A DNA stretch of 60,264 bases, taken from the IMG/VR virus record IMGVR_UViG_3300035198_000074, positions 1 through 60,264 of that record, one strand, 5' to 3'. The notes under the pieces are model-generated. The model saw only the letters and a list, made by a program, of their open reading frames with translations, searched no databases and was not told the origin of the DNA. The first letter of the stretch is position 1, and every line of letters begins with the position of its first letter. A program made the position numbers and the translations under genes. This document shows positions 4,309 through 46,416 of this stretch, piece after piece. The DNA comes from a virus.

Positions 4309-4321
4309 ACAAGAGGTTATC

Positions 4322-4594: not shown

Positions 4595-4651
4595 ATAACC
4601 AATTACGGGGAGACTACTTAAGAAACATCTAAAAAATAGAAAGGAGTAATT

Positions 4652-5395: not shown

Positions 5396-5433
5396 TTAGA
5401 CATAGGAAATGATAAGGACGAAAGGAGTAAGTG

Positions 5434-23859: not shown

Positions 23860-25091
23860 GATGTCTTAATAGGCTCCACAAGCATACTCATGTTATCAAT
23901 ATCAAAATCTGCACCATCATTATTCATGATTCGGATTGTGAAATAGTATCCCTTCAAACCAGTAGGCATCTTAAGCCGCTCTTGCGCAATCACGCTACCT
24001 GTTATTGTAGATGCTTTACTTACTTCTTGAGTTACATCTTCATCAGGGTAGACGTAGACAGTAAGAGTGCCTGTTGCCCTAAACATAAAGGTTATATCCC
24101 GCAAATATTTGCGCAAGCTTGTCCCGAAGTCAGTAGAGCCAGTCTTGAGCTTGGCAGATATAGTCGTTCCATTATCATCTGTCCCGCCTATCTCATAAAT
24201 ACCAGTCGGAGTAGCCCCCAATATTCTTCCGTTAAAATTAGCAATGGAGTTAAAGTTGAAGCCACTGTAGGTAGAGATTGCCTTATTCTTTATGTTGATT
24301 ACGATTCCAGTATATACCTCAGCAGGAGCTTCGCTGGGGCTGGCGCTTGGGGAAGCGGAAGGGCTGGCAGACGGAGACATGGAAGGACTCATTGAAGGCG
24401 AGGGAGAAGGACTTTCCGATGGGCTTCGTGAAGGAGAGGCTGTGCCACTTGCGCTTGGGCTACGGCTTGGGCTTGCGCTGGGAGATTTACTGGGGCTTTC
24501 CGAAGGCGACATGCTTGGGCTGGGAGAAGGAGAAATTGATGGACTCTTACTGGGACTCATACTTGGCGAAATACTTGGGCTTTCAGATGGCGATTCACTT
24601 GGGCTTCGACTCTTGCTTGCAGATGGTGATAAGCTTGCGGAAGGTGATAAGCTTGGGGATTCGCTGGGCGACATACTGGGGCTTCTGCTGGGGCTTAGCG
24701 ATGCTGATGGCGACAAACTGGGACTTGCACTGGGACTCATGCTTGGACTTTTGCTTGGTGATTCACTGGGACTAATACTCGCTGATGGGGATAAGCTTGG
24801 GCTTGCAGATGGCGATCTGCTTGGACTGGCAGAGGGAGAAGCACTTGGGCTTATACTGGGACTCATAGATGCAGAGGGAGATAAACTTGGACTCTTACTG
24901 GGGCTTACTGATGGAGAAGCGCTGGGACTTCTGCTTGGACTGACAGAAGCCGATGGAGACAAACTTGGGGAGGCGCTTGGACTCTGGCTTGCAGACGGAG
25001 AGAGACTCGGTGAGACACTGGGGCTCATCGAAGGGCTTAAACTTGGAGAAGCGCTTGGGCTTGCTGATGGGCTTTCACTTGCACTTGCCAT
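23856..25091 (-). CDS. Ser-Pro-Ser-X repeat tail protein
   Basis: A 411-residue protein from ATG 25091 (GGGAGGTAGTAAT). Residues about 5-255 are an uninterrupted (S-P-S-X)n array in which X varies (A, L, M, V, E, K, R, I, P). The last ~155 residues form a beta-rich domain ending in a segment with YYFTIRIMN and NMSMLVEP, as in phage tail proteins adjacent to propeller-like proteins. The repeat is probably an extended stalk. Its first residues, MASASESPS, match the capsid-side protein at 42331-42774. Confidence 0.65.
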   Translation of the reverse strand: MASASESPSASPSASPSLSPSMSPSVSPSLSPSASQSPSASPSLSPSASVSPSRSPSASPSVSPSKSPSLSPSASMSPSISPSASPSASPSRSPSASPSLSPSASISPSESPSKSPSMSPSASPSLSPSASLSPSRSPSMSPSESPSLSPSASLSPSASKSRSPSESPSESPSISPSMSPSKSPSISPSPSPSMSPSESPSKSPSASPSRSPSASGTASPSRSPSESPSPSPSMSPSMSPSASPSASPSASPSEAPAEVYTGIVINIKNKAISTYSGFNFNSIANFNGRILGATPTGIYEIGGTDDNGTTISAKLKTGSTDFGTSLRKYLRDITFMFRATGTLTVYVYPDEDVTQEVSKASTITGSVIAQERLKMPTGLKGYYFTIRIMNNDGADFDIDNMSMLVEPIKTS

Positions 25092-25095
25092 ATTA

Positions 25096-25986
25096 CTACC
25101 TCCCAATAGCTAAAAATTGCTGAAATGGGGAATTTCTGATAATAGCAGAACCAGACGTGAGTCCAGTCTTTTGGAATAGTCCTTCCTGCACCTTGACTAC
25201 AACCCCCTGATTATAGCCTGCATATACGTAACCATCTTCCGCAAGCCAGTAAGCTACCCTTGCTGCTGGTGCGCCTTTGGGGACCAATACCGCAGACATG
25301 CCTTCAATAGCAGGATAATCTAACTTTGGAGTTTCTACCCACTCTGATATTGGACTCCTGCCCGCTTCAAAATAGACTTTTTCACTATCGCTTACATAGA
25401 TGCCATTATCCACAGCCTTTACCATGGTAATCCTGCTTTTGAAAGAAATGGCATTTTTTCTTGTATCCATACGAGTAGGGATAGTGGCATCTGAGAAGAA
25501 TAGGTTGGTATTGTTAGCTGCATAAAGTCTGCTATTATACCATTCAAGTATCTGACCACCCACCATTCTTACTTTATAATCTTCTGTTGGGGTCGGAAAT
25601 GGATAGGGCAATCCTGTTCTCACATCAATATAGCCAATGATACTCATATTGGAGAAGTAGACGTAATTGCCGTTAAATGTGTAGGCAAAATCGTCATCAC
25701 CACTCACATCCTCAATCAGGATAGTGGAAGTATTGTCGGCATTGAGTCGTTTGAAAGTTGTGCCTTGCAGGTAGAGACAAATGTCGTCATTTGCCCACAG
25801 GCTTCTTATGTTAGTGCCTGATACTATTGCACTCCCGAAGCCATCTCGTAAGTGAGGCTTGCCCATATCATCAATATCCACATTCTCAATCTCGTAGAAG
25901 TAGGCTCCATCCTTGCGAAGTCTGTTGGTTGCAAGGTCAGATACATTATCAATTCCATAGACTCGTGTAATTTTATAATCAGGCAT
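25096..25986 (-). CDS. Tail stabilisation/structural protein
   Basis: A 296-residue protein. Start ATG 25986 is chosen because AAAGGAGG lies 8 bases upstream; a longer frame begins inside the previous gene. It starts MPDYKITRVYGIDNVSD and contains ENVDIDDMGKPHLRDGF, VYFSNMSIIGYIDV and LYAANNTNLFFSD, repeated blade-like beta units. I recall this pattern in podovirus tail proteins adjacent to the neck and fibres. Confidence 0.65.
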   Translation of the reverse strand: MPDYKITRVYGIDNVSDLATNRLRKDGAYFYEIENVDIDDMGKPHLRDGFGSAIVSGTNIRSLWANDDICLYLQGTTFKRLNADNTSTILIEDVSGDDDFAYTFNGNYVYFSNMSIIGYIDVRTGLPYPFPTPTEDYKVRMVGGQILEWYNSRLYAANNTNLFFSDATIPTRMDTRKNAISFKSRITMVKAVDNGIYVSDSEKVYFEAGRSPISEWVETPKLDYPAIEGMSAVLVPKGAPAARVAYWLAEDGYVYAGYNQGVVVKVQEGLFQKTGLTSGSAIIRNSPFQQFLAIGR

Positions 25987-27079
25987 CGAGGAAGCCTCCT
26001 TTATACCCATAGTATGACGCATTTGAATAACTTGTGCCATTATTAATTCTAATGTCTCTTACCCACCCAGCATAGGGAGGTTCCGTTATTGCTTCTGATG
26101 GCGATGGGGAAGGACTCATAGATGGACTGACGGATAGACTTAAGCTTGGGCTTAATGAAGGAGAAATGCTTGGCGAAGCGCTCGGCGAAACACTGGGCGA
26201 TAGACTTGGACTAATACTTGGACTCTTAGACGGCGATCCGCTTGGAGAAATACTTGGACTTAATGATGCACTGGGGCTGAGTGAAGGACTCACAGATGGA
26301 GACGCAGAAGGTGACTCAGACGCAGAAAGTGACGCTGAGGGACTTAGCGAAGGACTCATGCTCGGCGATATAGAAGGCGAAGCCGAAGGGGAAACACTTG
26401 GTGAAAGCGATGCAGAACCTATTGCCACACTTGGGCTTGCAGATGGAGACTCGCTTGGACTTATTGACGGAGATAGACTCGGAGAAATAGATGGAGATAA
26501 AGACGGAGACACCGATGCTGATGGACTCAAGCTTGGGCTTTCACTTGGAGAAATAGAAGGAGAAATGCTTAGACTAATGGATGGGCTTGCGGATGGAGAA
26601 ACTGAAGCTGATGGAGATAAGGAAGGACTTGCCGAGGGCGACATAGATGGTGACAAGCTTGGTGACTGCGAGGGCGATGCTGAAGGAGAAAGCGATGGCG
26701 ATTCGGAAGGTGACTCACTGGGACTCATTGAGAGCGACATACTTGGAGAAACTGATGCTGAAGGACTTAATGAAGGACTTTCAGATGGAGACTTACTGGC
26801 ACTTAGCGAAGGAGATGCGGATGGCGACAAACTCGCACTCTCAGAAGGTGATTTAGAAGGTGATAGACTCGGACTTTCTGATGGCGAGGGTGAAGGGCTA
26901 ACAGATGGAGATATTGATGGGCTAAGGCTTGCACTTGGCGAAAGCGATGGACTGGCACTTGGCGATTCGGATGGACTTACCGATGGAGATAAGCTTGCCG
27001 AAGGGGCACTAATAATCACCTCATCGCCAGCATTACTGATAACTTGATTGCCTAAATTGTCTATGACATATAAAGCCAT
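25979..27079 (-). CDS. Ser-Pro-Ser-X repeat fibre protein
   Basis: A 366-residue protein. A short N-terminal module (MALYVIDNLGNQVISNAGDE) is followed by about 300 residues of (S-P-S-X)n and a 30-residue C-terminal tail (GWVRDIRINNGTSY and YYGY). That tail recurs at the end of the 27899-30496 protein. The N-terminal module resembles the 37-residue gene at 27100-27213. It probably forms an extended fibre or stalk attached by its ends. Confidence 0.65.
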   Translation of the reverse strand: MALYVIDNLGNQVISNAGDEVIISAPSASLSPSVSPSESPSASPSLSPSASLSPSISPSVSPSPSPSESPSLSPSKSPSESASLSPSASPSLSASKSPSESPSLSPSASVSPSMSLSMSPSESPSESPSLSPSASPSQSPSLSPSMSPSASPSLSPSASVSPSASPSISLSISPSISPSESPSLSPSASVSPSLSPSISPSLSPSISPSESPSASPSVAIGSASLSPSVSPSASPSISPSMSPSLSPSASLSASESPSASPSVSPSLSPSASLSPSISPSGSPSKSPSISPSLSPSVSPSASPSISPSLSPSLSLSVSPSMSPSPSPSEAITEPPYAGWVRDIRINNGTSYSNASYYGYKGGFLDA

Positions 27080-27898: not shown

Positions 27899-30496
27899 TT
27901 AATAAATATAATAAATTGCTGGTACATAACTACTTCCATGACTTTCCCTAATATCCCTTACCCAATCCCCGAACTCGAAATCCCCTGCAACCTGTGGAGA
28001 AGGAGATGCGGAAGGAGACGGTGATGGTGATTTAGATGGAGAACGAGATGCCGACATGGATGGGGAGCGACTCGGACTCTCCGATGGACTCTTACTTGGC
28101 GATGCAGAAGGCGACATAGAAGGAGAGCAAGAAGGCGATGCAGAAGGTGATGCGGATGGACTCTTAGATGGAGATATAGATGGAGACAAGCTTGCAGACG
28201 GCGATAGACTTGGCGATATAGACGGCGATAGGCTTGGCGAGATGCTTGGACTTAGTGAAGGAGATGCGCTTGGCGAAATTGATGGCGATAAACTTGCCGA
28301 GGGAGATAGGCTGGGCGACTCCGAGGGAGATTCACTTGGAGAGATGCTTGGGCTAAGCGAGGCACTGGGGCTAAGTGATGGACTCTCACTGGGGCTAAGT
28401 GATGCAGAAGGACTAAGCGATGGGCTTGGCGAAGGTGAGAGCGATGGACTGGCAGATGGAGACATTGATGCCGATCCAGGAGTTTCTTCCGCTCCCCAAC
28501 TTCCCCAGGCTGGTTCTGGATCAAGATATTGTCGAACAAAATAATCATCAATACTATGTGTAATATAATAAGCATCAGTATAAAAATCTCCCCAAGCTAA
28601 ACATTTGCCACTTGCAAATGCTTTCACGGAAGCAATGGCAATAGAAGCGGGTGACGTAAAAAGACTGACTCCACCAGAAAAAATATCACAAAGAAAATTT
28701 GTGCCGTCTGACCAAATTTTAACCACAAGGTTGCTGTTAGCAGTAAGTACAGTTGCGGTGGTAGTCCATGCACTCCCTGTCCAAAAATGAAATGTGCCAC
28801 CTGTATCTTGGTATAGAACGGAAATCTTATTCGGATTAGTAGCAGCATTGGAATTATATCTCATAAAGTAAAATCTTCTCTTCGGCCCAGCAACGGCAGC
28901 GGTTCCTATTAAGTGAGCAACTGTATCTGAATCAAAAAGACCAACTATACTTTGATGACCTGCGGTTGTACCACCAATGTGTGTGTTCCACTTATTGATA
29001 GTAGCTTCAAATGCCCAATCGGCAAGAATAGCACCAGCAATTCCGCAATCGTCAGTACTATCTTCTGTAAGTGTATACTCTCCTGATCCATGTGATAAAG
29101 CACCTGTTCCAGATACAGCTTCCGTAAAACTGCCAGCAACCCCGTCATCACCCTTTATAAAAGTATTTATAATATTTGAAACAGAGGTTGCGTCTGCCTT
29201 TCCATAATACATATAGAAAGTCGTTGCACCTGTTCCAATGGAATCAAATTCAATGAAGAATTTTGCTATGGGTCTCTCGCTGGTAGCTTGTCCAATAAGT
29301 GGATAACCTGTACTTGCATACCCAGAATAAAAAAGAGTAAACTGCTTATTTGCATCAACTACAATATTCTTTAATGCATCTGTAAGAGGACTACTCCTAT
29401 AAATATGTAATGCTTCCCAAGACCAATCTGCATTTCGAGCTAATACCTTACCCTGATATATCCACGTCTTCTTATCAGTACAAGTAAATAGAGCAAGTTC
29501 AAAATTCACAGAAGCAACTATCTCACGAACACAATACATATAGTAAATGCCATTGTAGAGCGAAACATGTACATGGCCTAAACCACTTTTAAAATCGCTG
29601 TCTTCAGCTGGGTAAGCGATTGGATTCCCCCCATCTCTGGTAAAGTTCTCAACAACATTGGTTGTATTATTCCAAGTAAAAGTAGCTAATAAAAGTTTTC
29701 CTCTATTATTTCCTAAAAATGTTGTTCCTCCCGCAGCCCCCGTCACATACCAGAGATAAAAAACTCCACCTTCATAAGTAAGACTTGGTTGATAACAATT
29801 CCTTTCATTTGTATCTGAATACTTCTCATAAGAAGCCGTACCATCAACCAAGACTCCCAATTTTGTCCAACTCTTTCCATCAGACGAATAGGCCAAACCA
29901 ACTGTCGTATTATTATGCAGCGGTTCTTTGCCTGCTCCAGATTTCGACCCAGCATAGGCAATGAACCACTTTGAATAATCAGAAACGTAAACCATGGATG
30001 GATCGGCGCAATGGTACTCATCCCATTCACCAGTACCACCCAAAGAAATGACAGGATTTGTAATTCCAGTCTCCACCCATGTTATCCCATCATTACTTCG
30101 AACTATACAGGGAGTTTCACTTGCATCAGGCGGATATGGAGTATAAACCATCCAATATTTATAACCATCTACCGCAGAATCAAAGTAGAGTACATCTGGA
30201 TGAACAACCCCATTTGCACCCTGCAATGGCAAAGTCAATGGATTGAATCTATATTTTAGAAACGATTTACCAAATAATGAATAACTTTTGAGAAAATAAT
30301 CCAGAAGAGTTTCACCATCAGCCTTTGTAAATCGAAGATCACCAAAATCAGCAAGGCAGTGGTCATTGCAATCAACATCCGCACCGGCATCTGCATTCTT
30401 ACCAACCAGCAATTTCATCTGGTAATTGGTGACAGCACCAGAGGCACGACTTAATGTAATACTCTTACGATATGCCCAACCAGTTAACCACGCCAT
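27899..30496 (-). CDS. Tail spike: DUF2341 lectin split by a propeller, plus SPSX stalk
   Basis: An 865-residue protein. Residues 1-75 (AYRKSITL, DLRFTKADGETLLDYF) match the first half of DUF2341. The second half appears only at about 405-440 (TTFYMYYGKADATS). Between them lie repeats resembling a five-bladed GH43/sialidase-type propeller (YKYWMVYTPY, WFIAYAGSKSG, FYLWYVTG, YYMYCVREI). About 445-660 is another lectin-like beta domain, about 672-830 is (S-P-S-X)n, and the end repeats the GWVRDIR-type tail as GDWVRDIRESHGSSY. A carbohydrate-binding or -cleaving receptor protein is likely. Confidence 0.7.
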   Translation of the reverse strand: MAWLTGWAYRKSITLSRASGAVTNYQMKLLVGKNADAGADVDCNDHCLADFGDLRFTKADGETLLDYFLKSYSLFGKSFLKYRFNPLTLPLQGANGVVHPDVLYFDSAVDGYKYWMVYTPYPPDASETPCIVRSNDGITWVETGITNPVISLGGTGEWDEYHCADPSMVYVSDYSKWFIAYAGSKSGAGKEPLHNNTTVGLAYSSDGKSWTKLGVLVDGTASYEKYSDTNERNCYQPSLTYEGGVFYLWYVTGAAGGTTFLGNNRGKLLLATFTWNNTTNVVENFTRDGGNPIAYPAEDSDFKSGLGHVHVSLYNGIYYMYCVREIVASVNFELALFTCTDKKTWIYQGKVLARNADWSWEALHIYRSSPLTDALKNIVVDANKQFTLFYSGYASTGYPLIGQATSERPIAKFFIEFDSIGTGATTFYMYYGKADATSVSNIINTFIKGDDGVAGSFTEAVSGTGALSHGSGEYTLTEDSTDDCGIAGAILADWAFEATINKWNTHIGGTTAGHQSIVGLFDSDTVAHLIGTAAVAGPKRRFYFMRYNSNAATNPNKISVLYQDTGGTFHFWTGSAWTTTATVLTANSNLVVKIWSDGTNFLCDIFSGGVSLFTSPASIAIASVKAFASGKCLAWGDFYTDAYYITHSIDDYFVRQYLDPEPAWGSWGAEETPGSASMSPSASPSLSPSPSPSLSPSASLSPSESPSLSPSASLSPSISPSESPSESPSLSPSASLSPSISPSASPSLSPSISPSLSPSISPSLSPSASLSPSISPSKSPSASPSASPSCSPSMSPSASPSKSPSESPSRSPSMSASRSPSKSPSPSPSASPSPQVAGDFEFGDWVRDIRESHGSSYVPAIYYIY

Positions 30497-30497
30497 T

Positions 30498-31418
30498 TTA
30501 GTATCCTATCCCCGACCCTGACCGTATCGTAAAAGTCTTATCAGGTTTATTGAGTAATATTCCCTTCCGCTTGGCATTGCGCTTTGCTTCCTCAAATAAT
30601 CCACGATGGTATTCTGCCTTTTGAGGAAAGTAGGTATACTTATCGGGCTTGAGGAAGGCACGTTTGGCAATCCCATCTACCAAGTCATCTATTAAGTCTT
30701 CCTGGATGTCAGTTATTTCTGTCAAGGAAGTAATATCAGATACGGCGAATCTTGCAGTAGGCAATCTGCTAACCGTCATAAGCAACGTATCTCGCACCTT
30801 GCGCAATATGGCGTTGGTATTTGCTTCACAGACAAGCGCATCAGTTACTGTAATCGAGGTTGTGCCTTCAGTGGCTACTGTGTAGTAGCCGTCATTACTT
30901 GTTGTGCCAGACACGTAGAACTCATCACCCACTGCGAAGTCCGAGAAGTCTCCCCCAACCTGGGAAATGGTTACGCCATTAAAAGTAATGTTAGAAGCCC
31001 CTGTTACCTCGCCTTCATCGTCAAACTTTGGGTAAATGGATAAGTAGCCAGAATACGCCCCTGGACAGAAGCGAGAAGGTATCCCTGTCGTGCTGCGCCA
31101 ATCAGAGATAGTTTTATCGAGGACGGATTCAGTTGTCCGTAGTAATGGACCAAATGAAGAGTTAGTCTCCAGTCTTGCGTCATGCACACTGATGACACGT
31201 GAATCGAGGGCATAAACGCCTACATTGCTTATAAGCTTGATAGTGCGTATCGCCTCAGTTGTCTGATCCCTGATTGGTAAAGCGGACTTTACCAGTTCAT
31301 TGATAGCACGATTTAGAAGGTGGATAAGCTCCGTATTGCTCCATAAATATTTCTGGCTATCTGTATCATCCAACACCTCTTCCCTTGTCCAATTTATTAC
31401 ATCAGCTACGGTTGACAT
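30498..31418 (-). CDS. Head-to-tail adaptor protein
   Basis: A 306-residue protein with ribosome site GGAGGAAGAAA. The N-terminus (VINWTREEVLDDTDSQKYLWS) and the following helix ELIHLLNRAINELVKSA match podovirus adaptor/gp4-like proteins that join portal to tail. A small beta domain appears inserted at about 142-200 (ITFNGVTISQVGGDFSDF, DGYYTVATEG). The C-terminal helices resume the adaptor fold. Confidence 0.7.
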   Translation of the reverse strand: MSTVADVINWTREEVLDDTDSQKYLWSNTELIHLLNRAINELVKSALPIRDQTTEAIRTIKLISNVGVYALDSRVISVHDARLETNSSFGPLLRTTESVLDKTISDWRSTTGIPSRFCPGAYSGYLSIYPKFDDEGEVTGASNITFNGVTISQVGGDFSDFAVGDEFYVSGTTSNDGYYTVATEGTTSITVTDALVCEANTNAILRKVRDTLLMTVSRLPTARFAVSDITSLTEITDIQEDLIDDLVDGIAKRAFLKPDKYTYFPQKAEYHRGLFEEAKRNAKRKGILLNKPDKTFTIRSGSGIGY

Positions 31419-31668: not shown

Positions 31669-31891
31669 CCTGATACTCTGGTTTGCCGAGTCCATATTTC
31701 TCCTTGTATTTTGACAACTTCTCACACATAGCTTTCCCCATAGCCATCGCCAGACGACACTTAAGTCTTATTTCCTGGTTATCTGTCATATGATACATAT
31801 CACGTATCGTTTGACACAAGGTATTTTCCCCTTCGTAAATCTTGCGATCCATGACCCTTTCTGGCACAGGGTCTCTACGTTTGTAGGGCAT
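31658..31891 (-). CDS. Small helical protein, paralog B
   Basis: A 77-residue protein with ribosome site GAAGGAGGCAGCAA. It contains LCQTIRDMYHMTDNQEIRLKC and AMGKAMCEKLSKYK, nearly the same pattern as paralog A, so the two are a tandem duplication. It overlaps the glycosyltransferase gene at its start. Confidence 0.6.
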   Translation of the reverse strand: MPYKRRDPVPERVMDRKIYEGENTLCQTIRDMYHMTDNQEIRLKCRLAMAMGKAMCEKLSKYKEKYGLGKPEYQDGI

Positions 31892-33632
31892 TTGCTGCCT
31901 CCTTCAGCCATTCATTAAAACGCCCCTTACATCTTCCCCAAAATGGAATCTCATCTGCCATAGTCCAATCCACCACCTGACCTCGGTAGCCACTTGGGTC
32001 AAAAATGTTGCGAGTTAGGGCATCCCCATGGCGAATATCAACATAGGGAATTTCAGACATCCATGTGTCAAAACCATGAGGAGTTAATTGCCTGTATTCT
32101 TCCCTGCAATGCCCGCCTGGTTCAAAGTGCCTGCGTCCTCCTATCACTCCTTGCTCAATTAATCTTACCCTATTGCGGTAATATTCAATAAGAATATCTC
32201 GGTATGCACACAATCCCGACACCTGCTTAGCTTTAAAATGGAGCGCTTGACCATCTCCTGCCCTCACTTTCCACCAATTGAGGTTATAATAGAATGTATC
32301 CTTTCTTGGAGGCGTAAATTCAAAATGGCACTTCGGGTAGAGGATGTCGTGTTCGACCATAAATGCAATGTCAGTATCAAGCGCCTCCAATCCAGCCAAC
32401 TGTTGCTTAGCCATGGTAAGGTATCCCCTCTTCATATTTAATACTATATTTTCGCCAAAATTGATAGGGGATAAGGAGACAGTAATAAGTCTATACCCAT
32501 TTGAGGAAGCAAGTAACTTTGTTTTCACAGCTTCAAAAATCGTAGGATCAATCCTGTTATCTGTGTAAAAACACAAGCCTTTTGTGGGATGGGATGCACC
32601 TTTTGGCACAGGAGGAGGGATGCTTTTCCTTGATTCCATGCTATATGGCACAAATGACTTACTGGCCTCCCGCAACTGTCGCCTGTCTTCTTCCGACCAT
32701 CGTGGCACAGGCCAAAATTTGTCAATAAGCCAAATAAGTGGGTATTTTTGGTGAGGCCATTTATTGCCAAAGAATATTTCCCTGGCCCGCTTCTTGGCGA
32801 ACTCAACCTGTTTACCAGAGAGTGTATAAGGAAACCCAAAATCTCCCCCTTGTGTCCTAAACATATGGGCATACCAGGTATTGTGATTACATACAACTCT
32901 ACCCCCTGATAGCCATGTTTTTACTGCTACCTCTATCCCCTGGCTTCCCCATGATCCAAAATCCTCATCACACAAATTAAGCTCCCAAAATTTATCTCTG
33001 GTTACCATGAAAAAGGAACCCTGAAGCGACATTGTTTCGGTGAGTTGCTTCTTCCTTGCTTCTGGACGGGACTTAAACTCCCGAAAATATTGAAAATGGG
33101 GTTCTGGGTCGAAGCAGTAGGAAGTAGATTGAGGGTTAGTTTTGGCGATCCAGCATATATCCATGGTGGTGGCCTTACCGCATAATATCTCCTGCCCACT
33201 TTTATCTTTCCCTATTACCTCTCTGCATGGCCCTGATGGACTCTGGTAACGTCTATGGCCATCTGGGCATACCCAATCAAATGCATGCAGATTGCGCATT
33301 ACTGGCACCATAGTCCAGTCATCCTGCATATCTTTCATTAACTTAACATCGAACCCTTCATCGAAGGCGCAATGGGCGTCAACTTTTGCGATATACTTGG
33401 CCTTAGATAGCTTAACGCATTCGTTGGTAATTGCCCTTTGCCCAATGGGGGTACTATGATAAATCATGTGGACTAAGGGATGATCGTTAATTGGCGGGTC
33501 AGGCCAATTGCCATCACACCCTATGATTATCTCAGTATTCCCCCTGATATTCTTGAGTAAATCCTCCACGGTGCGGGCAAGAAATACCTCATTTCTCGCA
33601 GGAATGCAGATACTCAAATCAACCTTTGCCAT
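31875..33632 (-). CDS. Two-domain glycosyltransferase
   Basis: A 585-residue protein. Residues about 1-330 are a GT-A fold family 2 transferase: LSICIPARN, then IIGCDGNWP and AKYIAKVDAHCAFDEGFD with a DxH-type metal motif. This half is paralogous to the 36965-37963 protein. Residues about 350-585 (FYTDNRIDPTIF, INFGENIVLN, FMVEHDILYP, YYNLNWWK) are paralogous to the 35699-36373 protein. It is therefore a fusion of two families that also exist separately in this cassette. It probably adds sugars to virion protein or to host glycans. Confidence 0.7.
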   Translation of the reverse strand: MAKVDLSICIPARNEVFLARTVEDLLKNIRGNTEIIIGCDGNWPDPPINDHPLVHMIYHSTPIGQRAITNECVKLSKAKYIAKVDAHCAFDEGFDVKLMKDMQDDWTMVPVMRNLHAFDWVCPDGHRRYQSPSGPCREVIGKDKSGQEILCGKATTMDICWIAKTNPQSTSYCFDPEPHFQYFREFKSRPEARKKQLTETMSLQGSFFMVTRDKFWELNLCDEDFGSWGSQGIEVAVKTWLSGGRVVCNHNTWYAHMFRTQGGDFGFPYTLSGKQVEFAKKRAREIFFGNKWPHQKYPLIWLIDKFWPVPRWSEEDRRQLREASKSFVPYSMESRKSIPPPVPKGASHPTKGLCFYTDNRIDPTIFEAVKTKLLASSNGYRLITVSLSPINFGENIVLNMKRGYLTMAKQQLAGLEALDTDIAFMVEHDILYPKCHFEFTPPRKDTFYYNLNWWKVRAGDGQALHFKAKQVSGLCAYRDILIEYYRNRVRLIEQGVIGGRRHFEPGGHCREEYRQLTPHGFDTWMSEIPYVDIRHGDALTRNIFDPSGYRGQVVDWTMADEIPFWGRCKGRFNEWLKEAANALQT

Positions 33633-33653: not shown

Positions 33654-33681
33654 TTGACAAATTAGAACTATATGCTATATT
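33654..33681 (+). promoter_or_regulatory. Promoter of the Tad2-like gene
   Basis: A consensus -35 TTGACA (33654-33659), a 16-base spacer, and -10 TATATT (33676-33681) preceded by TGC, an extended -10. It lies about 25 bases before the first ribosome site of the only plus-strand gene in this minus-strand block. The 11 bases TATGCTATATT recur at the small-terminase promoter (51471-51481, minus). Confidence 0.75.
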
Positions 33682-33705
33682 TCCCATATCAAATATCCGC
33701 TATGA

Positions 33706-33759
33706 AAGGAGTCAATAATGTCAGACAACGATAAGGAGTCAATAATGCCAGACAACGAT
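33706..33759 (+). repeat. 27-bp tandem duplication of ribosome site and start codon
   Basis: 33706-33732 and 33733-33759 are identical except for one base (T/C after ATG). Each copy carries AAGGAG and an ATG, so the gene has two in-frame starts, each with its own Shine-Dalgarno, adding 9 residues if the first is used. Confidence 0.9.
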
Positions 33760-34017
33760 TATTATAAACTTGAAGTATCACCTACGCATCCAACTACCCC
33801 AATACTTAATAACTTTGGGATTGCCATGGACCGAATTCTAAGCGGCTTTGTCATGCGAAGGTTATCATGGCCCGACGATGGAACTGTAGTAGCCATGCAT
33901 AATGACATATTGTCCATATTCATCCCAACCGATAAACAGTGGCATCCCCTTATGGTATCCATCGCTGACATAGCTGGGGAAGACTGGGTAACTGCATCAC
34001 CCCCAAGAGTTAATTAA
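33718..34017 (+). CDS. Tad2-like (DUF2829) protein, candidate anti-Thoeris factor
   Basis: A 99-residue protein (or 90 from ATG 33745). The core fits DUF2829 as I know it: FGIAMDRILSGFVMRRLSW, then LSIFIPTDKQWHP and DIAGEDW, the conserved Arg-x-x-Trp and the C-terminal Trp/Asp/EDW features. Tad2 proteins of this family bind the cyclic ADP-ribose signal of Thoeris defence and block it. The lone plus-strand orientation inside late minus-strand genes, the private sigma70-type promoter and convergent neighbours are typical of an added cargo gene. Anti-defence activity is inferred, not shown. Confidence 0.65.
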   Translation: MSDNDKESIMPDNDYYKLEVSPTHPTTPILNNFGIAMDRILSGFVMRRLSWPDDGTVVAMHNDILSIFIPTDKQWHPLMVSIADIAGEDWVTASPPRVN

Positions 34018-34733
34018 GGTTGAGCCAAACTTAATTTATGAAATAGTCCAAATGGATTGTTGTCTCCATCTGTCCTGAATTTACTCACAGGATAACAATA
34101 AATCTTAGGGCCTATTACTTGCTCTTTTGCCTTTCCCAACCTTACCAATCTATCAAAACTACCATTGAATTGCCCTTCTTCAGAAATAAATCTTCCTCCC
34201 ATATGAAATCCTTGCTCACAGAAGCGCACATCGTAGCCCCCGATAGCATTGAAAACTGCCTTGCGGATTAAGTAAGTGTTGCCATGAAAACCTCCACAAA
34301 GGTGTCCTCTTCTGGTACGCACTCGTGCAGGATTTAGTCCAAATTCCAGCATAGACTTCTCATCGCATACGATATCCCCATTTTCATCGAGAATCCCGTA
34401 GTAGCGTGGAAATACCATCTTATCAGAAGTAAATGTTAGGGAAGCGTCTATTGCCTCTTGTGTGATGATGTGGTCAATATCAGTAAAAAATAGGTATTCC
34501 CCTTTGGCGTTGGTTGCACCGAGGTTGCGTGCCAATCCCTGTGTCCAGGGACGCTTATCGTGAGTATAGTAGAAGGTTAGATTCCGCATCTCGCCAGTAA
34601 GTGGTGGCTCACTCCCGTCATCCACGAAAATAAACTCCACCGAATCGGGCAAATCCATTTTCTTGAAATGTGCAATCTGTCTTCGCACAACTTCATGACT
34701 ATCCAGAATTGCGATAACAATGGATATCTTCAT
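34014..34733 (-). CDS. Family 2 glycosyltransferase
   Basis: A 239-residue GT-A protein: MKISIVIAILDSHE, then VEFIFVDDGSEPP, LARNLGATNAKGEYLFFTDID (nucleotide-sugar binding and DxD-type motif TDID), and HLCGGFHGNTYLIRKAVF with GGYD. It has no membrane segment, so it is soluble. Its stop overlaps the plus-strand Tad2-like gene's stop by 4 bases. It belongs to the glycan cassette. Confidence 0.75.
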   Translation of the reverse strand: MKISIVIAILDSHEVVRRQIAHFKKMDLPDSVEFIFVDDGSEPPLTGEMRNLTFYYTHDKRPWTQGLARNLGATNAKGEYLFFTDIDHIITQEAIDASLTFTSDKMVFPRYYGILDENGDIVCDEKSMLEFGLNPARVRTRRGHLCGGFHGNTYLIRKAVFNAIGGYDVRFCEQGFHMGGRFISEEGQFNGSFDRLVRLGKAKEQVIGPKIYCYPVSKFRTDGDNNPFGLFHKLSLAQP

Positions 34734-35404
34734 CTATACCTCACAAGTGTCAGGTAGGGTAATTTGAAGTCATGATGATGCTCGGTGGGGATTACCTTTA
34801 CCATACAATTGTGCTTAAATAGTACATAGGGAAAGGACAATTGATCCACTGAGTGATACCTTGACGTATGATACCACCAGTCTTTAAGCATTACCCGATT
34901 CTTCTCAATATTGCGGTAAACGAAGGCAGTAGAGGCGTAGAGTTTATCGTCCACGTACTCCTTATCGCTAAAAATTTCTGATAACTGATCATCTATCAAT
35001 TCATTGTCATATCTAAGGGTTACGTATTGATCCATGCCTGGATTTTTGCGCTCCTTTTGCAATCTCTGCTTGAGATATATCGCCTCCTCCCTGATGGAGT
35101 TTCGTATGGGGTGCTTCAGGACAGCAATATCCACTCCACTGCATTGCTCTACGAACCATTTCACTGAGTCAATATGCTGTAGTGAAAAGGAAGCATCTAT
35201 CCATATATAATAGTCGTAGCCTGGCACCATCTGCCATGCGAACATTTTTGGGATACGTGCCTGCAGTCGTGGTGTCATGGAACAATGCCGTAGTGGGAAA
35301 TTAGCATCTGTGAAAATGTGGAAATCATAGGGGATACTTTGCGGAACGTAGGGCACAAGTTTGTCGAAATCTCCCATGTTGGCAGTAACCACTGCGATTC
35401 GCAT
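34730..35404 (-). CDS. Glycosyltransferase of the TOD1/MUCI70 (DUF616) type
   Basis: A 224-residue protein; ATG 35404 is chosen for the perfect GGAGAGGATA site. It has MRIAVVTANMGDFDKL, IPKMFAWQMVPGYDYYIWID and ASFSL (the DxD-like IDAS motif), as in DUF616/TOD1-type GT-A proteins. Downstream helices and the HHHDFKLPY end are less conserved. It overlaps the next gene by 4 bases, consistent with a single transcript. Confidence 0.6.
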   Translation of the reverse strand: MRIAVVTANMGDFDKLVPYVPQSIPYDFHIFTDANFPLRHCSMTPRLQARIPKMFAWQMVPGYDYYIWIDASFSLQHIDSVKWFVEQCSGVDIAVLKHPIRNSIREEAIYLKQRLQKERKNPGMDQYVTLRYDNELIDDQLSEIFSDKEYVDDKLYASTAFVYRNIEKNRVMLKDWWYHTSRYHSVDQLSFPYVLFKHNCMVKVIPTEHHHDFKLPYLTLVRYR

Positions 35405-35712
35405 TATCCTCTCCGTCCTGGCATTACGCATCCTGGTTTACCAGCTTCCCACCAGGGAGTCAATGGATACACCTTCCGCCCCCATCCTCTACCTTCATGC
35501 ATAGTAATTCTTTTTGCCATAGATTTAGACATGGTTGTAGCTATTCGCAATAAACGCCTTATTTCAACTAAATCTACATTTTCCTCTTTGGTCAATTGGT
35601 AAATATGTCGTAAAACCTCGCATGGAGAAAGTAGGCGATATGACCCATGCATCAATTCTTCTTTCTCTGGCTCACAATGAAACCAGTCAGTAGGGTATCT
35701 ATTTTCCTCCAT
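35404..35712 (-). CDS. Small helical protein, divergent paralog C
   Basis: A 102-residue protein. Its middle (CEVLRHIYQLTKEENVDLVEIRR, IATTMSKSMAKRI) follows the same pattern as the proteins at 31402-31668 and 31658-31891, so the set has three paralogs that bracket the glycan cassette. It overlaps both neighbours by short stretches. Confidence 0.55.
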   Translation of the reverse strand: MEENRYPTDWFHCEPEKEELMHGSYRLLSPCEVLRHIYQLTKEENVDLVEIRRLLRIATTMSKSMAKRITMHEGRGWGRKVYPLTPWWEAGKPGCVMPGRRG

Positions 35713-36373
35713 TCCAGTATTGCTCCCACAATTCTGTCGCCTTTCCCCAATAAGGCAATTCTCGCTTTATCTTATCTTTTCTACGAATAATTCTTACTCC
35801 TCCTACGCTGGGACGATGGTTAAAAACAATAGTAGGAGTTCGAGTCTGAAATCTCTCAATTCCCACTATAGGCAATCCAAGTTGCTCCTCAAATCTTCCA
35901 GGCTCCCCAAACCCAATAAGTTCTCCCTTTTCCCTACTAAGGGGATTGGGAAATTTCTTGAAACGTGTTTCAAGAGTATCTACCATTAGCTCAGTTGAGG
36001 CAATGCACATAGACATATTTGCCCTATTGCGCCAGAAAAATAGGTCTCGATTGGCATTCCATCTATTAACATTATAGGAGAAGGTTCCATCAGGGGGGCG
36101 GTGTCGGAAATGCTCCTCATTATAGAGTGCATCGTCCTCGCAACATGCTACATACTTGGTTTTTGCCTCTATTGCCCCAATAAGCACCTGCTTATAGATA
36201 TTGTAGATGGATGCCCCAATGTCGCCTACACAGATATTGTAGCCAAAGTCGAGTGGCTTCTGGGAGACAGAGATAATGGGAAGACCGAAGGAGAGCAGGG
36301 ACTGCCTGATGTTATTAGCAAATTTCTCATCCACTAAGTTGGCAGTATAGTAAATGAGGGTTAAGTCCGTCAT
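35699..36373 (-). CDS. Glycosyltransferase-like protein
   Basis: A 224-residue protein homologous to the C-terminal half of the 31875-33632 protein: LTLIYYTANLVDEKF, DFGYNICVG, YVACCEDDALYNEEHF and FSYNVNRWN. The EDD stretch could be the metal-binding motif of a GT-A fold. No ribosome site; the start overlaps the methyltransferase stop (ATGA), so coupling is likely. Substrate unknown. Confidence 0.6.
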   Translation of the reverse strand: MTDLTLIYYTANLVDEKFANNIRQSLLSFGLPIISVSQKPLDFGYNICVGDIGASIYNIYKQVLIGAIEAKTKYVACCEDDALYNEEHFRHRPPDGTFSYNVNRWNANRDLFFWRNRANMSMCIASTELMVDTLETRFKKFPNPLSREKGELIGFGEPGRFEEQLGLPIVGIERFQTRTPTIVFNHRPSVGGVRIIRRKDKIKRELPYWGKATELWEQYWNGGK

Positions 36374-36963
36374 GGCTTCACCCAGAAAAAGCTATGTAAT
36401 TCATCCTGTGTAATGTACCACTCAAGTATCGAATGCCCTCGTGTATACCCCTCAACCGCTGGCACTACTCCGCAACCATGCAAATTGGTATAGTCATGCC
36501 CCGACACTATTCCTCCCCTTCTTACCTTCTTGCTCCATCCAATAATGTCCATCATGACATTGTCAAAGTCATGCATAGCATCAATATAGACAAAATCAAG
36601 CGATTCATCCTCGAAGTCGGCCAGCGCCTCCATGCTTGGCTTTCTTATCAGAGTAGCACCAAGCGGAGTAAGTACCTTATTAGCTCTTCTAAATACTCTC
36701 TCCTGTCGAATAGGTCCTATTCTGCCATAAGGTGCCCATGAGTCGATGCAAAACATCTTAACCCCTGGATTCTTACGAATTATCATCTCTGAATACTCTC
36801 CCCACCTAACTCCTATTTCTGCCCCTACCTTGAACCCAGCTTCAGCAAACAATTCCGCAAGATTTTCACGGGTACTTTTCAACCATCCCGCATAAGGGAT
36901 AGTCGATATACCCTTTACTCTGAATTTTGCCTTAATATAGGCATTTAGTTCGGATGCGTTCAT
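36370..36963 (-). CDS. Class I SAM-dependent methyltransferase
   Basis: A 197-residue protein from ATG 36963 (AAGGAGGTATAGA). Motif I is GAEIGVRWGEYS, motif II-like is KMFCIDSWAPYG, and LDFVYIDAMHDFDNVMMDI marks the Methyltransf_24-like family. RRGGIVSGHDY follows. In a glycan cassette it probably methylates a sugar hydroxyl, for example as a chain cap, though a small-molecule substrate is possible. Confidence 0.7.
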   Translation of the reverse strand: MNASELNAYIKAKFRVKGISTIPYAGWLKSTRENLAELFAEAGFKVGAEIGVRWGEYSEMIIRKNPGVKMFCIDSWAPYGRIGPIRQERVFRRANKVLTPLGATLIRKPSMEALADFEDESLDFVYIDAMHDFDNVMMDIIGWSKKVRRGGIVSGHDYTNLHGCGVVPAVEGYTRGHSILEWYITQDELHSFFWVKP

Positions 36964-36964
36964 T

Positions 36965-37963
36965 CTATACCTCCTTAAAGGGCAGTGCATCTATGCCGTC
37001 TGGATCAAATATACGGAAATTTGTATTGAATTGTGGGTTCTCCTTCTCAAATCTTACCTTATCTTCCTTCCAGTTGGCTGGCCAGCTTGGGATAGGCCAG
37101 AAATGCTCCACAAACCACTCCATCTTACGGGTTGCAAGAGGCCATAGATCATTCATCCAGTAGTAGGTCTGGAAGCGCCCCGTTTCCCGCATGGCCTGCC
37201 ACGACAATTTCCATGTCCTGCCGTGCGAATCCTTTTCCCGTTCGCTTTTGTGCATATGGGCATACCACGTATTCTTATTCACAATGCACCTACCACCTGA
37301 TAGCCATACCTTAAATCCTAACTCTTGCGGCTCGTTCTCCATTAAATCGCAATGCTTCTCGTCAAGTCCGCCTATTGCGAGATACTTCTCCTTCGTCATC
37401 ATCCAGAAGGAACCCTGAAACGTCATCATGTCATCTATGGGCTTATCCTTATTGTGTATCTCCATCCAGTAAAATTCGCTTACTCCCATATTCTTTCCGA
37501 ACCCATCTTTCCCTATCCACTTCCTGCCATGGAGTCCATTGCCATACATATTGTCAGGAGTATAGGGGTAAGTGATGAAGAGATATTCGGTAGGTCCCCT
37601 TCCCCTTTCCCATTTTTCGGCATCCATTGCATATCGACTGGGGTTAACAAGCCAATCATCTTCCATGTCCTTCTGTAATATTTCATCGAACCCTTTTCCA
37701 AACATTGTGTGATCATCGCATTTTGCGACATATTTACCTTTGGCAAGTGCTACCCCAAGGTTGACACTTTTACGCATTCCTGTAACTTGTGGTTTATGAA
37801 CAATGGTGAGATTTGGGTGGGGCTTTATTTCTGGGACGGGCCAGTACCCGTCGAGAATTGCGAGTACTTCAATTTCCCCCGTGGCGTTTTTGAAAATATC
37901 TTCAACAGTATTCGATACATATTTGCAATTCCGACTTGGAATTATTATGCTCAGCAAGGCCAC
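36965..37963 (-). CDS. Family 2 glycosyltransferase
   Basis: A 332-residue protein starting at GTG 37963 (GGGGAAGAC upstream). It has LSIIIPSRNCKYVSNTVEDI, ILDGYWP, KYVAKCDDHTMFGKGFD (DxH/DD metal motif) and FQGSFWMMTKEKYLAIGGLDE. It aligns along its length with the N-terminal half of the 31875 protein. It is soluble and cytoplasmic and probably uses a nucleotide-sugar donor. Confidence 0.75.
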   Translation of the reverse strand: MALLSIIIPSRNCKYVSNTVEDIFKNATGEIEVLAILDGYWPVPEIKPHPNLTIVHKPQVTGMRKSVNLGVALAKGKYVAKCDDHTMFGKGFDEILQKDMEDDWLVNPSRYAMDAEKWERGRGPTEYLFITYPYTPDNMYGNGLHGRKWIGKDGFGKNMGVSEFYWMEIHNKDKPIDDMMTFQGSFWMMTKEKYLAIGGLDEKHCDLMENEPQELGFKVWLSGGRCIVNKNTWYAHMHKSEREKDSHGRTWKLSWQAMRETGRFQTYYWMNDLWPLATRKMEWFVEHFWPIPSWPANWKEDKVRFEKENPQFNTNFRIFDPDGIDALPFKEV

Positions 37964-42330: not shown

Positions 42331-42774
42331 TTAGAATCCTATTGCCATTACCTCCAATGTGGTAGATGATAAATATGCACCTTCACTCACCTCTGTTCCA
42401 TAGGTAGTGAAAACTCTAATGGTATTGGCCGATCTATCCCATTCATAATTTATTCCCGCTCCATTAGCTTCAAGAATGACTACTGCGTCAATGTTACTCA
42501 TCCCCAATTCTCCAGCGGTTAATGGAACCCCGCCAGATGGATAGGATGCTGGCGCACCCCCAAAAGCAATCGTAGCAAATGTCAACCTTTTCCTGCCTAT
42601 TCTCGATATTTTACCATGAAGAGTGTAAGTAACGTCTCCAGCAGGGATAGGTGATGGCGAAGCGCTGGGGCTTGCGCTGGGGCTGGATGAGGGAGACCTG
42701 CTTGGGCTCACACTTGGTGATGCACTGGGTGATGCACTGGGGCTAATGCTTGGGCTTTCTGATGCTGATGCCAT
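42331..42774 (-). CDS. Ser-Pro-Ser-X protein beside the capsid genes
   Basis: A 147-residue protein from ATG 42774 (AAGGAGGAAGGAAAT). Residues 1-42 are (S-P-S-X) repeats with the same MASASESPS opening as the tail protein at 23856-25091. The rest (VTYTLHGKISRIGRKRLTFAT, AFGGAPASYPSGGVPLT, YEWDRSANTIRVFTTYG) matches a beta-rich phage head protein pattern that I recall from genes next to capsid genes. It suggests surface-exposed repeats on the head. Confidence 0.65.
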   Translation of the reverse strand: MASASESPSISPSASPSASPSVSPSRSPSSSPSASPSASPSPIPAGDVTYTLHGKISRIGRKRLTFATIAFGGAPASYPSGGVPLTAGELGMSNIDAVVILEANGAGINYEWDRSANTIRVFTTYGTEVSEGAYLSSTTLEVMAIGF

Positions 42775-42855
42775 ATTTCCTTCCTCCTTATTCCCCTTGG
42801 TATTTGTGGGCAATTACGTCCCACGTTAGACTTCGGAGATAAATTTTAGTTGTGT

Positions 42856-43595: not shown

Positions 43596-43674
43596 CTTCT
43601 TCCTCCTTTGGCCTTCTTGCAAGACCAATATCATCATCTACATCATCTTCTATCCAAATATCATGACAACACAT

Positions 43675-43872
43675 TTAAATCTTCCTATACCCTTGCGCAA
43701 TCTCGGCAGGGGTAAATTCCCCACTACCATGCGCCGATTTCTTCACTTTCTCTGGCAACTTGGATATGTTGGGAGTCTCGTGTGCCCATTTTCCCGCTGT
43801 ACCCTTGGGCAATTCTCCCCTATTTTCCATAGCAAAAAACTTCCGCATCTGTTTCTTGCTCTTAAATGGCAT
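43675..43872 (-). CDS. Small basic phage protein with shared C-terminal tag
   Basis: A 65-residue protein with ribosome site GTAGGAGGCAGGAAT. MPFKSKKQMRKFFAMENRGELPKGTAGKWAHETP is a small-protein pattern I have seen in phage genomes. It ends KKSAHGSGEFTPAEIAQGY, nearly the same as the adjacent protein although the N-terminal parts are unrelated. The tag may be a docking or targeting segment. Confidence 0.65.
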   Translation of the reverse strand: MPFKSKKQMRKFFAMENRGELPKGTAGKWAHETPNISKLPEKVKKSAHGSGEFTPAEIAQGYRKI

Positions 43873-43883
43873 ATTCCTGCCTC

Positions 43884-44090
43884 CTACCTCAACCTAAACC
43901 GTCTCGCAATCTCTGTCTCAATCATCCTTAATTCGGTTGGACTTACTTCCTTCATATCCCATGCATCCCTGAATCTATTAAACTCCCTTATTCTTCTTGT
44001 GAAGAAACGTATCTCGCCAGAGTGGAAAGTATCATCTGGCTTCGTAACTTCCACTCTTCCCCCAATGTAGCCATTGTAATCAGGATTCAT
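43884..44090 (-). CDS. Hypothetical protein
   Basis: A 68-residue protein if started at ATG 44090 (AGAGGAAG upstream); ATG 44129, directly after the previous stop, is an alternative. It has a beta start (YNGYIGGRVEVTKPD) followed by basic helices (IRFFTRRIREFNRF, IETEIARRFRLR). Family not recognised. Confidence 0.55.
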   Translation of the reverse strand: MNPDYNGYIGGRVEVTKPDDTFHSGEIRFFTRRIREFNRFRDAWDMKEVSPTELRMIETEIARRFRLR

Positions 44091-44523: not shown

Positions 44524-46416
44524 TTAGGCCGTAGGAGGCATCCCAGCAGGTGCAGTTTCCATAGGTGTCGGCGCAGGCTCTCCTGCCATTGGCGGTGGCC
44601 CTCCTGGTGCCTGTCCCCCTACTTCTGGCACCTGTCCCCCTACTCCTAATGAATCCAGAAACTCTTTTATCTTTGCCTGCACCTCTGGCCCGCCCGATGC
44701 CACAAGTTCCCCTAACTTCTCGACCAATTGCTCCCCAATCTGGGTCTGCTCCAACTCCTCTTTCGTTTTTATGAATGGGGCCTTATACATTCCTATTGCC
44801 CCCATTACTTCATCAAGGTATTCTTTTAACTTAAAGAAGGGCTGAAATTTCGGGTCATCTGTAAATGCCTTCATTGCCATTAGCAATTTCGACTTTTCTG
44901 CCTGTTTAAGTTGAGAAGAAATTCCCGTGATGCTCAAATCACACTCCTCTGACAAGAATTGCTTTTTCTCATCAAGACTTGCCCCTTCCAGAAATCTTGT
45001 AAATTCATTATCTCCCAATACCCTTGTCGGAGTGGGGTCAGACAACCCATTCCAGTTTAGCACCATTGTCTCAAAAAGGGAATATCCTACATTGACCGCT
45101 CCACTCTCTATTTCCGCCCCTATGGAATCAAATATGCCTAAACTTTGCTCAGTCTTAATCTCCACTTCCCCTTTTGTAATCTGCTCCCTATATCCAGGCA
45201 ACCCTGCCGCCATAGCATTTACAAAATCCCCTTCCTCAATTAGGCCAGTGACATATTGCGCCACGGCGAGAATCTTCTCAATATTGGAAGTTGTCAAGAC
45301 ATCCTTAACTACTGGATATTGTATCATATCTGTGGTGCGATAGACTTCCTTACCGGGATAAAAATCAAGGTCTGTGGGATCAAGCATCAGTTCAGGCGCT
45401 ATCTCCCGCATACGGTTCACCACCCACGAAAAGTCATCCATGGTGAGGCTTAGCATATTATTGAGCATTCTCCAAATATCAAACACTCCCTCAATCAACC
45501 CTCTTCCGTCATAGCGAAGAATATGGGGAATGGGAACAAAGGAAGTACCTGCCCAGCGCATTTTTACAAAAGGAATCACTTCTGGCTTTCTGATAAGCAC
45601 CTCACCCGCAATTGTATATTTTGCATTAGGGAGAAGCATATCCCCTTTCTTATCAAGCACTATGCCATTAAATTCCCGCACAAGAACCGACTTTCGATAC
45701 TTGGTGCGATCCCAGTACATTTTCTTCCTGCGCTCTATCTCCTCCTTAGAGTCCTGTAACCCAGTAGGCGCTCCCCCTTCCTTTACTTTATCAATGTTGA
45801 TATAGTAACCATCTTTTGCCGCTTCATGAAGCGTCCACATATCAAGCCACTCTTCATGGATGCAATAATTGCCCGACCACGGTTCCCCTGTCAGGGCATC
45901 TGGGTCACGCAATATTTTCCATGGCTCCGCACAATCAAGTAGCATTCCATTTTCCCAGCGAGGGATAAGCTCAAGGGAGGTGCCAGTGGCGAAAGCCATT
46001 CGGCATGAATTAGCAAATTTTCGGGGAAAGTCGATTTTTCGTGGGGCAGACCAGAAAAGTAGGGCGTTCTTTACCTCATATGACATGTTTTTATCATTAA
46101 CTTCTACTCCTTCCACATTAATGTAGTTGGGATCTCGGAAGGCCCTTCTGATGATGGACACTGCTCTTTCTACGGCAGTGAATGGCTTATTGGTGGTGAC
46201 TCGTGATTGCCATGCTTCCTTATCGCCAAATGCCATAATGTTCTGGTAGGCATCCCAGAGTAAGGTCATGGCGTCAAGTATATCTATTCTGGCTCTTCGG
46301 GATTCGGTAGCGCATTCTATGCAATAATCGACAAAATGTTGGTCATCCTCTCCCGCAATAGCAATCGCTTCTTCCTCTCTTTCCTTTAGTTCTTTATCAT
46401 CTATGACATCAGGCAT
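44524..46416 (-). CDS. Portal protein
   Basis: A 630-residue protein in the expected place between large terminase and scaffold. The N-terminus contains an acidic, helical clip-like region (ATESRRARIDILDAMTLLWDAYQ) and repeats such as PRRAFRDP-type turns (IIRRAFRDPNY). VREFNGIVLD, WAGTSFVPIPHILRYDG and WRMLNNMLSLTMDDFSW resemble podovirus portals. The tail is Pro/Gly/Ala-rich (VGGQVPEVGGQAPGG). The length fits the family. Confidence 0.75.
   Translation of the reverse strand: MPDVIDDKELKEREEEAIAIAGEDDQHFVDYCIECATESRRARIDILDAMTLLWDAYQNIMAFGDKEAWQSRVTTNKPFTAVERAVSIIRRAFRDPNYINVEGVEVNDKNMSYEVKNALLFWSAPRKIDFPRKFANSCRMAFATGTSLELIPRWENGMLLDCAEPWKILRDPDALTGEPWSGNYCIHEEWLDMWTLHEAAKDGYYINIDKVKEGGAPTGLQDSKEEIERRKKMYWDRTKYRKSVLVREFNGIVLDKKGDMLLPNAKYTIAGEVLIRKPEVIPFVKMRWAGTSFVPIPHILRYDGRGLIEGVFDIWRMLNNMLSLTMDDFSWVVNRMREIAPELMLDPTDLDFYPGKEVYRTTDMIQYPVVKDVLTTSNIEKILAVAQYVTGLIEEGDFVNAMAAGLPGYREQITKGEVEIKTEQSLGIFDSIGAEIESGAVNVGYSLFETMVLNWNGLSDPTPTRVLGDNEFTRFLEGASLDEKKQFLSEECDLSITGISSQLKQAEKSKLLMAMKAFTDDPKFQPFFKLKEYLDEVMGAIGMYKAPFIKTKEELEQTQIGEQLVEKLGELVASGGPEVQAKIKEFLDSLGVGGQVPEVGGQAPGGPPPMAGEPAPTPMETAPAGMPPTA

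Follow-up and report, generated by a model that had tools for sequence, protein, structure and literature searches.

A compact Tad2-like gene with its own promoter sequence, antisense to a glycosyltransferase cluster in a viral late operon

What function is to be expected of a short gene that is read against the direction of a late operon and is wedged between two glycosyltransferase genes? This situation is found in the window analysed here, which comprises an entire IMG/VR virus record (60,264 bases) and the middle of which (about 7.8 to 51 kb) is occupied by a block of minus-strand genes that includes terminase-, portal- and adaptor-like genes. An earlier note on this DNA had described a plus-strand gene at 33654-34017 with a private promoter and a DUF2829 match, and had interpreted it as acquired anti-defence cargo of the Tad2 type. 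Tad2 proteins are known to act as sponges that take up alarm signals of the ADP-ribose and cyclic-dinucleotide types. The features that bear on this proposal are the following.

30498-31418, minus strand: SU10-type head-tail adaptor (PF24175, E 5e-11; phrog_399, E 1.5e-17)
31875-33632, minus strand: gt585, bimodular family-2 glycosyltransferase (PF00535, E 1.5e-8)
33654-33681, plus strand: sigma-70-type promoter TTGACA-16-tgcTATATT with an extended TG before the -10 element (11/12 matches)
33706-33759, plus strand: 27-bp tandem duplication with Shine-Dalgarno sequence and ATG (Tandem Repeats Finder: 2 copies, 96%)
33718-34017, plus strand: compact Tad2-like ORF, 99 amino acids, or 90 amino acids from 33745
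34014-34733, minus strand: gt239, family-2 glycosyltransferase (PF10111, E 5e-13; PF00535, E 1.5e-10)
34730-37963, minus strand: rest of the glycosyltransferase/methyltransferase cluster
34730-35431, minus strand: TOD1_MUCI70 domain
36370-36990, minus strand: Methyltransf_24
36965-37963, minus strand: further GT2

The gene, its promoter and its surroundings

The reading frame at 33718-34017 was recovered together with a preceding Shine-Dalgarno sequence, AAAGGAG, and we consider it to be a real gene because its frame has been conserved across 30 distinct viral loci. Since a 27-bp stretch with the Shine-Dalgarno sequence and the ATG is duplicated, there are two in-frame starts, at 33718 and 33745; the duplicated unit is present only once in the nearest homologue, L043. 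The 99-amino-acid protein consists of a disordered N-terminal tail with an SP motif, followed by a Tad2 fold of 65 residues. Its gene lies inside a cluster of glycosyltransferase and methyltransferase genes that spans 31.9-38.0 kb, and this sugar cluster sits within the late structural operon. The divergent neighbour is gt585, whereas gt239 is convergent, with stop codons that overlap by 4 bp (sequence 34001-34030). Base composition gave no foreign signature, the GC content being 0.433 for the Tad2-like gene as compared with 0.428 and 0.447 for its neighbours. As to gt585 itself, its GT2 domain is fused to a C-terminal region similar to a protein that is encoded separately at 35699-36373, and in an 824-amino-acid ORF of another record (L003:9124-11598) the two halves are parted by a long low-complexity linker.

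The claim that this is the only plus-strand gene between 7.8 and 51.7 kb holds in substance, with the reservation that a gene is possible in the repeat-rich stretch at 49.9-51.4 kb. All other plus-strand ORFs of the interval overlap minus-strand genes, have a lower codon-use score or fall into that stretch. Three candidates with a good codon score (24292-25113, 26166-27047 and 28056-28544) were rejected because they run opposite to larger minus-strand genes that are tiled across repeat-rich DNA, and a fourth (43663-44070) was displaced by two minus-strand ORFs with a higher codon score. The stretch at 49.9-51.4 kb, with repeat units of 27 and 26 bp, is located between two gene blocks and may represent an origin or control region. 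Elsewhere in the window we observed a small late protein that starts with Ser-Pro repeats (SPSASPS...; 42331-42813), an AAA_25 ATPase with a C-terminal helix-turn-helix (1956-2864, plus strand) and an ERCC4-type nuclease domain (5748-6482, plus strand).

The TTGACA-16 promoter is located where the earlier note had placed it. Its -10 element, TATATT, ends at 33681, and the first ATG follows 36 nucleotides further on. Only three sites with at least 11 of 12 matches occur in the 60-kb window, of which this is the only one on the plus strand and two are on the minus strand. By contrast, sites with at least 9 of 12 matches are not enriched (24 found versus 29.6 expected from shuffles), and the case for the promoter thus rests on the strength of a single site. 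Being antisense to the late operon, the gene is not readable together with it. An own promoter (judged by sequence), opposite transcription and absence from the same site in relatives are features that the gene shares with morons. No terminator-like site was present near 34.0 kb, and hence no terminator of its own; morons both with and without one are known.

A compact member of the Tad2-like superfamily

The window protein belongs to the Tad2-like superfamily, in which it is placed by its relatives and its fold, and we do not file it as Tad2 proper. Compared on its own with PF11195 it scored 17.7-18.1 bits (E 0.004-0.0052) and did not reach the gathering cut-off of 25 bits, which is a score threshold and no biological feature; nor did it have a convincing match in PHROGs, PADLOC or NCBIfam, with none at all in PADLOC. 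Because of this weak score the placement in PF11195 is firm only via the relatives: all 30 aligned homologues match the family (E≤0.1; best 3.5e-11), and the cut-off is exceeded by G002, G003 and G005 and by seven of the 23 gt585 records. The DUF2829 match reported earlier is thus correct at the level of fold and family, while the window protein alone stays under the Pfam cut-off.

A profile built from 12 members detected SPO1 Tad2 in the PDB (E 3e-10), and also SptTad2, HgmTad2, ModTad2 and AcrIIA7. An AlphaFold2 model of a single chain, built from the 30-row alignment A7, reached a pLDDT of about 95 over residues 21-80, with a poorly ordered N-terminal tail. When this model was compared with the PDB, the first 24 Foldseek matches were all Tad2/AcrIIA7 entries, and VIA-align returned Z scores of 10.6-12.2 for ten Tad2 entries. 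The next entry, a neck protein of phage 812 (8qkh; Z 5.7), was discarded since its score lies inside the tool's stated range of chance matches. Profile and structure searches, which had been suggested as a check of the assignment, hence both lead to Tad2.

The plain Tad2-like picture of the earlier note had overlooked that, in both alignment and model, the protein has neither an insertion between strands b2 and b3 nor the GWNGK motif. Aligned with five full-length phage Tad2-like proteins, including that of SPO1, it is shorter by about 20 residues in the segment that links strands 2 and 3, and in the model b2 ends at residue 52 and b3 starts at residue 55. GWNGK, located in the b1-b2 loop, is invariant in the five full-length phage sequences, which suggests to us that it may serve as a marker of Tad2; the corresponding residues here are WPDDGT, in which W is kept and NGK replaced. 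Replacement also affects the KTAD motif of the full-length forms, whereas the Tad2 residues W21 and D...DW are retained.

Tad2 proper is a homotetramer with two ligand pockets. According to passages of a review (PMC12043709), cyclic dinucleotides are bound via the insertion after b2, the pocket for an ADP-ribose-type ligand is formed by strand b4, helix a3 and the loops b1-b2, b3-b4 and b4-a3, and helix alpha2 forms part of the dimer interface. In a passage of a preprint, 3'3'-cGAMP is described as not bound by SPO1 Tad2 (PMC11722364). All pocket elements named in those passages of PMC12043709 exist in our model at the level of loops, strand and helix. Because the insertion credited with dinucleotide binding is absent, loss of this binding is predicted, and based on the model the compact form may accept ligands of the ADP-ribose type but no dinucleotides. 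The missing stretch should also hold alpha2, in which case the dimer interface via this helix would be gone; a dimer formed via helix alpha1, in which the pocket is shared, is predicted instead. If the fold was kept and the dinucleotide insertion lost, a natural minimal Tad2 would show which part does what, and the compact form leads to a clear-cut prediction, namely that ADP-ribose ligands may be bound whereas dinucleotides are not.

Comparison with characterized proteins places these differences in context. SPO1 Tad2 (gp34.65; PDB 8sme, 8smf, 8smg, 8wje), which sequesters gcADPR, is likewise phage-borne and resembles the window protein in fold (Z 12.2, rmsd 1.6 Å over 66 residues) and in the F, G, W21, D and DW positions. 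It differs by the b2-b3 residues and the GWNGK and KTAD motifs (23% identity), and the SP-containing tail and the glycosyltransferase neighbourhood are additions on the side of the window protein. The same differences in insertion, motifs, tail and neighbourhood apply to ModTad2 (PDB 9eib, 8v3e; Z 11.4, rmsd 1.5), the ligand of which is given in a passage of PMC13299392 as His-ADPR of type II Thoeris. HgmTad2/AcrIIA7 and SptTad2 (PDB 8kbi-8kbm, 8wjd; Z 10.6-11.3) were solved with cADPR and cyclic dinucleotides, and it is the dinucleotide insertion that is absent here. A 60-amino-acid protein of Klebsiella phage KpS110 (BFVD A0A2K9VAK2) shares the compact core and the approximate length (TM-score 0.87 by target), but its sequence similarity is weak (22%). 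Since compact DUF2829 proteins of 60 to 75 amino acids exist in cultured phages (BFVD), small size alone is not new.

The SP motif of the N-terminal tail (SPTP, SPVP, SPLP etc.; encoded at 33745-33810 in the window) is present in 19 of the 23 tails of at least 8 residues among the A7 homologues, as compared with a mean of 5.6 and a maximum of 13 in 5,000 shuffles. In the five full-length forms the tail is short or missing.

Homologues and their glycosyltransferase neighbours

Searches with the single sequence detected no relative in 50,697 phage records and none in viral_contigs; PHROGs returned only two matches (E 0.27-0.29) and the PDB only one chance match. The homologue in L003 (47% identity, E 9e-17), which occupies the same place and is likewise antisense to the cluster, surfaced only after relatives had been fetched via the neighbouring gt239. 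Profiles of this and further members led to the 30 distinct viral homologues of alignment A7. The compact form is retained across all of them, with small insertions of their own in L071 and L081. Two scans of bacterial genome_contigs, built on one or two short patterns, found no relative. Among cultured phages there were no relatives of gt585, of the compact Tad2-like proteins from L019 and L069, or of the 630-amino-acid portal-like protein encoded at 44524-46416. The L025 query gave one weak long-form match, in Cronobacter phage JK004, and the L003 query only four weak partial matches in Lactobacillus phages (E 0.2-0.8).

The Tad2-like gene is accessory because only some gt585 records and relatives have it, and have it in different places. 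A compact gene is present in eight of the 23 gt585-bearing records, all eight being recognized via the compact profile, and is not visible in the other 15, many of which are fragments. In L007, gt239 abuts gt585 with no gene in between, and in L017 and L022 the Tad2-like gene is found among small non-structural genes. Patchy presence, varied places and the empty junction of L007 support the accessory behaviour implied by the term acquired anti-defence cargo, and this part of the claim only. In L022 (IMGVR_UViG_3300027899_000982), a large gene (4299-5738) comes after the Tad2-like gene and may encode a TROVE/Ro60 RNA-binding protein, and a frame upstream (3628-4023) looks like translated tRNA genes.

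Nine of the 30 genes (those of the window, L003, L043, L044, L064, L023, L068, L078 and L079) are antisense to a glycosyltransferase cluster near gt585, which is thus a recurrent neighbour of antisense members. An exact TTGACA in the -35 position of the best upstream site distinguishes seven of these nine from the 21 others, none of which has it (Fisher 1.8e-5), and sites with 11 or 12 of 12 matches are similarly distributed (4/9 versus 0/21; Fisher 0.0046); start codons in this comparison were assigned by script and partly by hand, and some may be wrong and affect it. Its shuffles preserve base composition only, and L045, identical to L044, was dropped. Perfect promoters (12/12) precede the genes of L003 and L064 (both in the same place as in the window) and of L078, whereas L043 and L068 have no good promoter upstream. 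One more gene separates the Tad2-like gene from gt585 in L043, L064 and L068. The antisense genes do not form one clade, with seven changes on the best tree and at least two on supported branches of this weak tree. Once relatedness was allowed for, with two independent pairs on supported branches, the link between promoter and orientation was not significant.

The compact subfamily is specifically and strongly associated with glycosyltransferase clusters, a link that the earlier note had overlooked and that the canonical Tad2 genes examined do not share. Among 22 compact loci found by the Tad2-like sequence alone, eight have a GT2 gene at a distance of up to 300 bp, 11 at up to 1 kb and 14 at up to 3 kb, while eight have none within 3 kb. 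By contrast, no GT2 gene was found at any of these distances in 80 full-length Tad2 loci of the same collection with similar flanks, which are the best 80 of 575 and lean to the first sequence of alignment A8. Near-copies of L024 (L026, L027) and loci first reached via gt239 (G002, G003, G005) were left out. The GT2 profile used had been derived from the GT2 domains at compact-Tad2 and gt585 loci; with the curated PF00535 the picture did not change at the level of whole records, with matches in 16 of 19 compact-Tad2 records (the 22 Tad-first records without the short L029, L077 and L082) as compared with two of 27 full-length-Tad2 records, those of the best 80 of 575 that were picked for length (>30 kb).

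As lineage could explain such a co-occurrence, placement within records was tested in the 16 records with GT2 (L066, L071 and L075 have no PF00535 match), which are not independent lineages. The Tad2-like gene lies within 200 bp of a GT2 gene in six of them, 0.63 being expected at random (P 1.5e-5), and within 1 kb in eight (2.7 expected, P 0.0015). The nearest GT2 is 1.3 to 1.5 kb away in G011 and G012 and 8 to 39 kb away in G013, G019, G021, G022, G024 and G028. In L019, L029 and L080 the Tad2-like gene is on the same strand as, and 17-28 nucleotides upstream of, a glycosyltransferase domain. A search of one paper library returned no paper that joins Tad2, glycosyltransferase, anti-defense and phage, and the novelty of the link rests on such searches.

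Possible functions

We regard a self-transcribed, accessory and compact Tad2-like ligand-binding protein, probably an ADP-ribose-type sponge against host defence, as the leading explanation, to which we would give about an even chance. It is held to be the most likely because the wiring is what one would expect of an early anti-defence gene and immune-signal sponges have this fold. The gene would be a moron that was inserted, in antisense orientation, between two glycosyltransferase genes within the late operon. Host RNA polymerase would read it from its own consensus sigma-70 promoter from DNA entry onwards, and the convergent late transcript, not halted by a terminator, may later silence it. 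The compact protein would bind a small molecule derived from a nucleotide, most likely an immune signal of the ADP-ribose type; it retains the elements of the ADP-ribose pocket and has presumably lost the cyclic-dinucleotide site together with the insertion. Its oligomeric state would probably be altered, given that alpha2, which contributes to the dimer interface of Tad2, should be located in the missing stretch. Sequestration of the signal could then blunt a host defence of the Thoeris kind.

Several points count against the sponge. GWNGK, which is located in the b1-b2 loop and thereby belongs to the ADP-ribose pocket, is replaced by WPDDGT. The protein has no PADLOC match, and the promoter-orientation link is not significant after tree correction. 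A cargo gene for anti-defence in general would not be expected to track glycosyltransferases, and in L019, L029 and L080 the pairs on one strand resemble operon partners. From the glycosyltransferase association it follows that a non-defence role is possible, and a role within the glycan module is the strongest rival and a serious one, doubtful as we consider it on balance: the Tad2 fold might bind an ADP-, UDP- or GDP-linked nucleotide sugar or regulate the adjacent gt585. The proximity to GT2 genes in 14 of 22 compact loci but in none of the best 80 of 575 full-length ones, the PF00535 counts (16/19 versus 2/27, the latter again from the best 80 of 575), the placement within 200 bp in six of 16 records (P 1.5e-5) and the three tight pairs all argue for it. 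However, eight of the 22 loci have no GT2 nearby, 15 of the 23 gt585 records (many of them fragments) show no such gene, and most of the nine antisense cases own a promoter instead of being part of the operon. Moreover, glycosyltransferase clusters may simply be accessory islands, and the 16 records are not independent lineages.

It is tempting to speculate, although we would rate this as rather improbable, that the insertion-less Tad2 subfamily is tied to glycan-building clusters as such, either as a handler of sugar nucleotides or as a sponge for a signal that the sugar module provokes, with an early-on, late-off wiring when antisense. The compact subfamily to which this would apply is known here from uncultivated phages only. 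The glycosyltransferase link also hints that an automatic label of Thoeris anti-defence may be wrong for some of the PF11195 proteins.

The remaining explanations fare worse than the sponge. AcrIIA7, an anti-CRISPR, carries DUF2829 (as stated in a passage of PMC6739104), and its entries (9kzr, 8kbi) were matched by profile at about 1e-6 and by fold at Z 11.3. Nevertheless, an anti-CRISPR of this kind is very unlikely. The sequence of 8kbi (titled AcrIIA7) is identical to that of 8kbj (titled HgmTad2 with cADPR), so that ligand binding is the activity common to this fold. Furthermore, the window protein is no closer in sequence to AcrIIA7 than to SPO1 Tad2, and its direct neighbours are glycosyltransferase genes, with no helix-turn-helix (aca-like) gene among them. 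A late-operon product with a Tad2-like fold that serves as a small virion or assembly protein could be imagined from the position between the adaptor gene and other structural genes and from the neck protein as the next fold match after Tad2; it is most improbable, as that match is within the chance range, the gene here runs against the late operon, and in L017 and L022 it is found among small non-structural genes. Finally, a decaying, functionless remnant of a full-length Tad2 gene, to which the missing insertion and the low score of this copy (18 bits) relative to its relatives might point, is disfavoured and hardly credible, as the compact form is kept in 30 homologues with intact frames and, in several, strong promoters.
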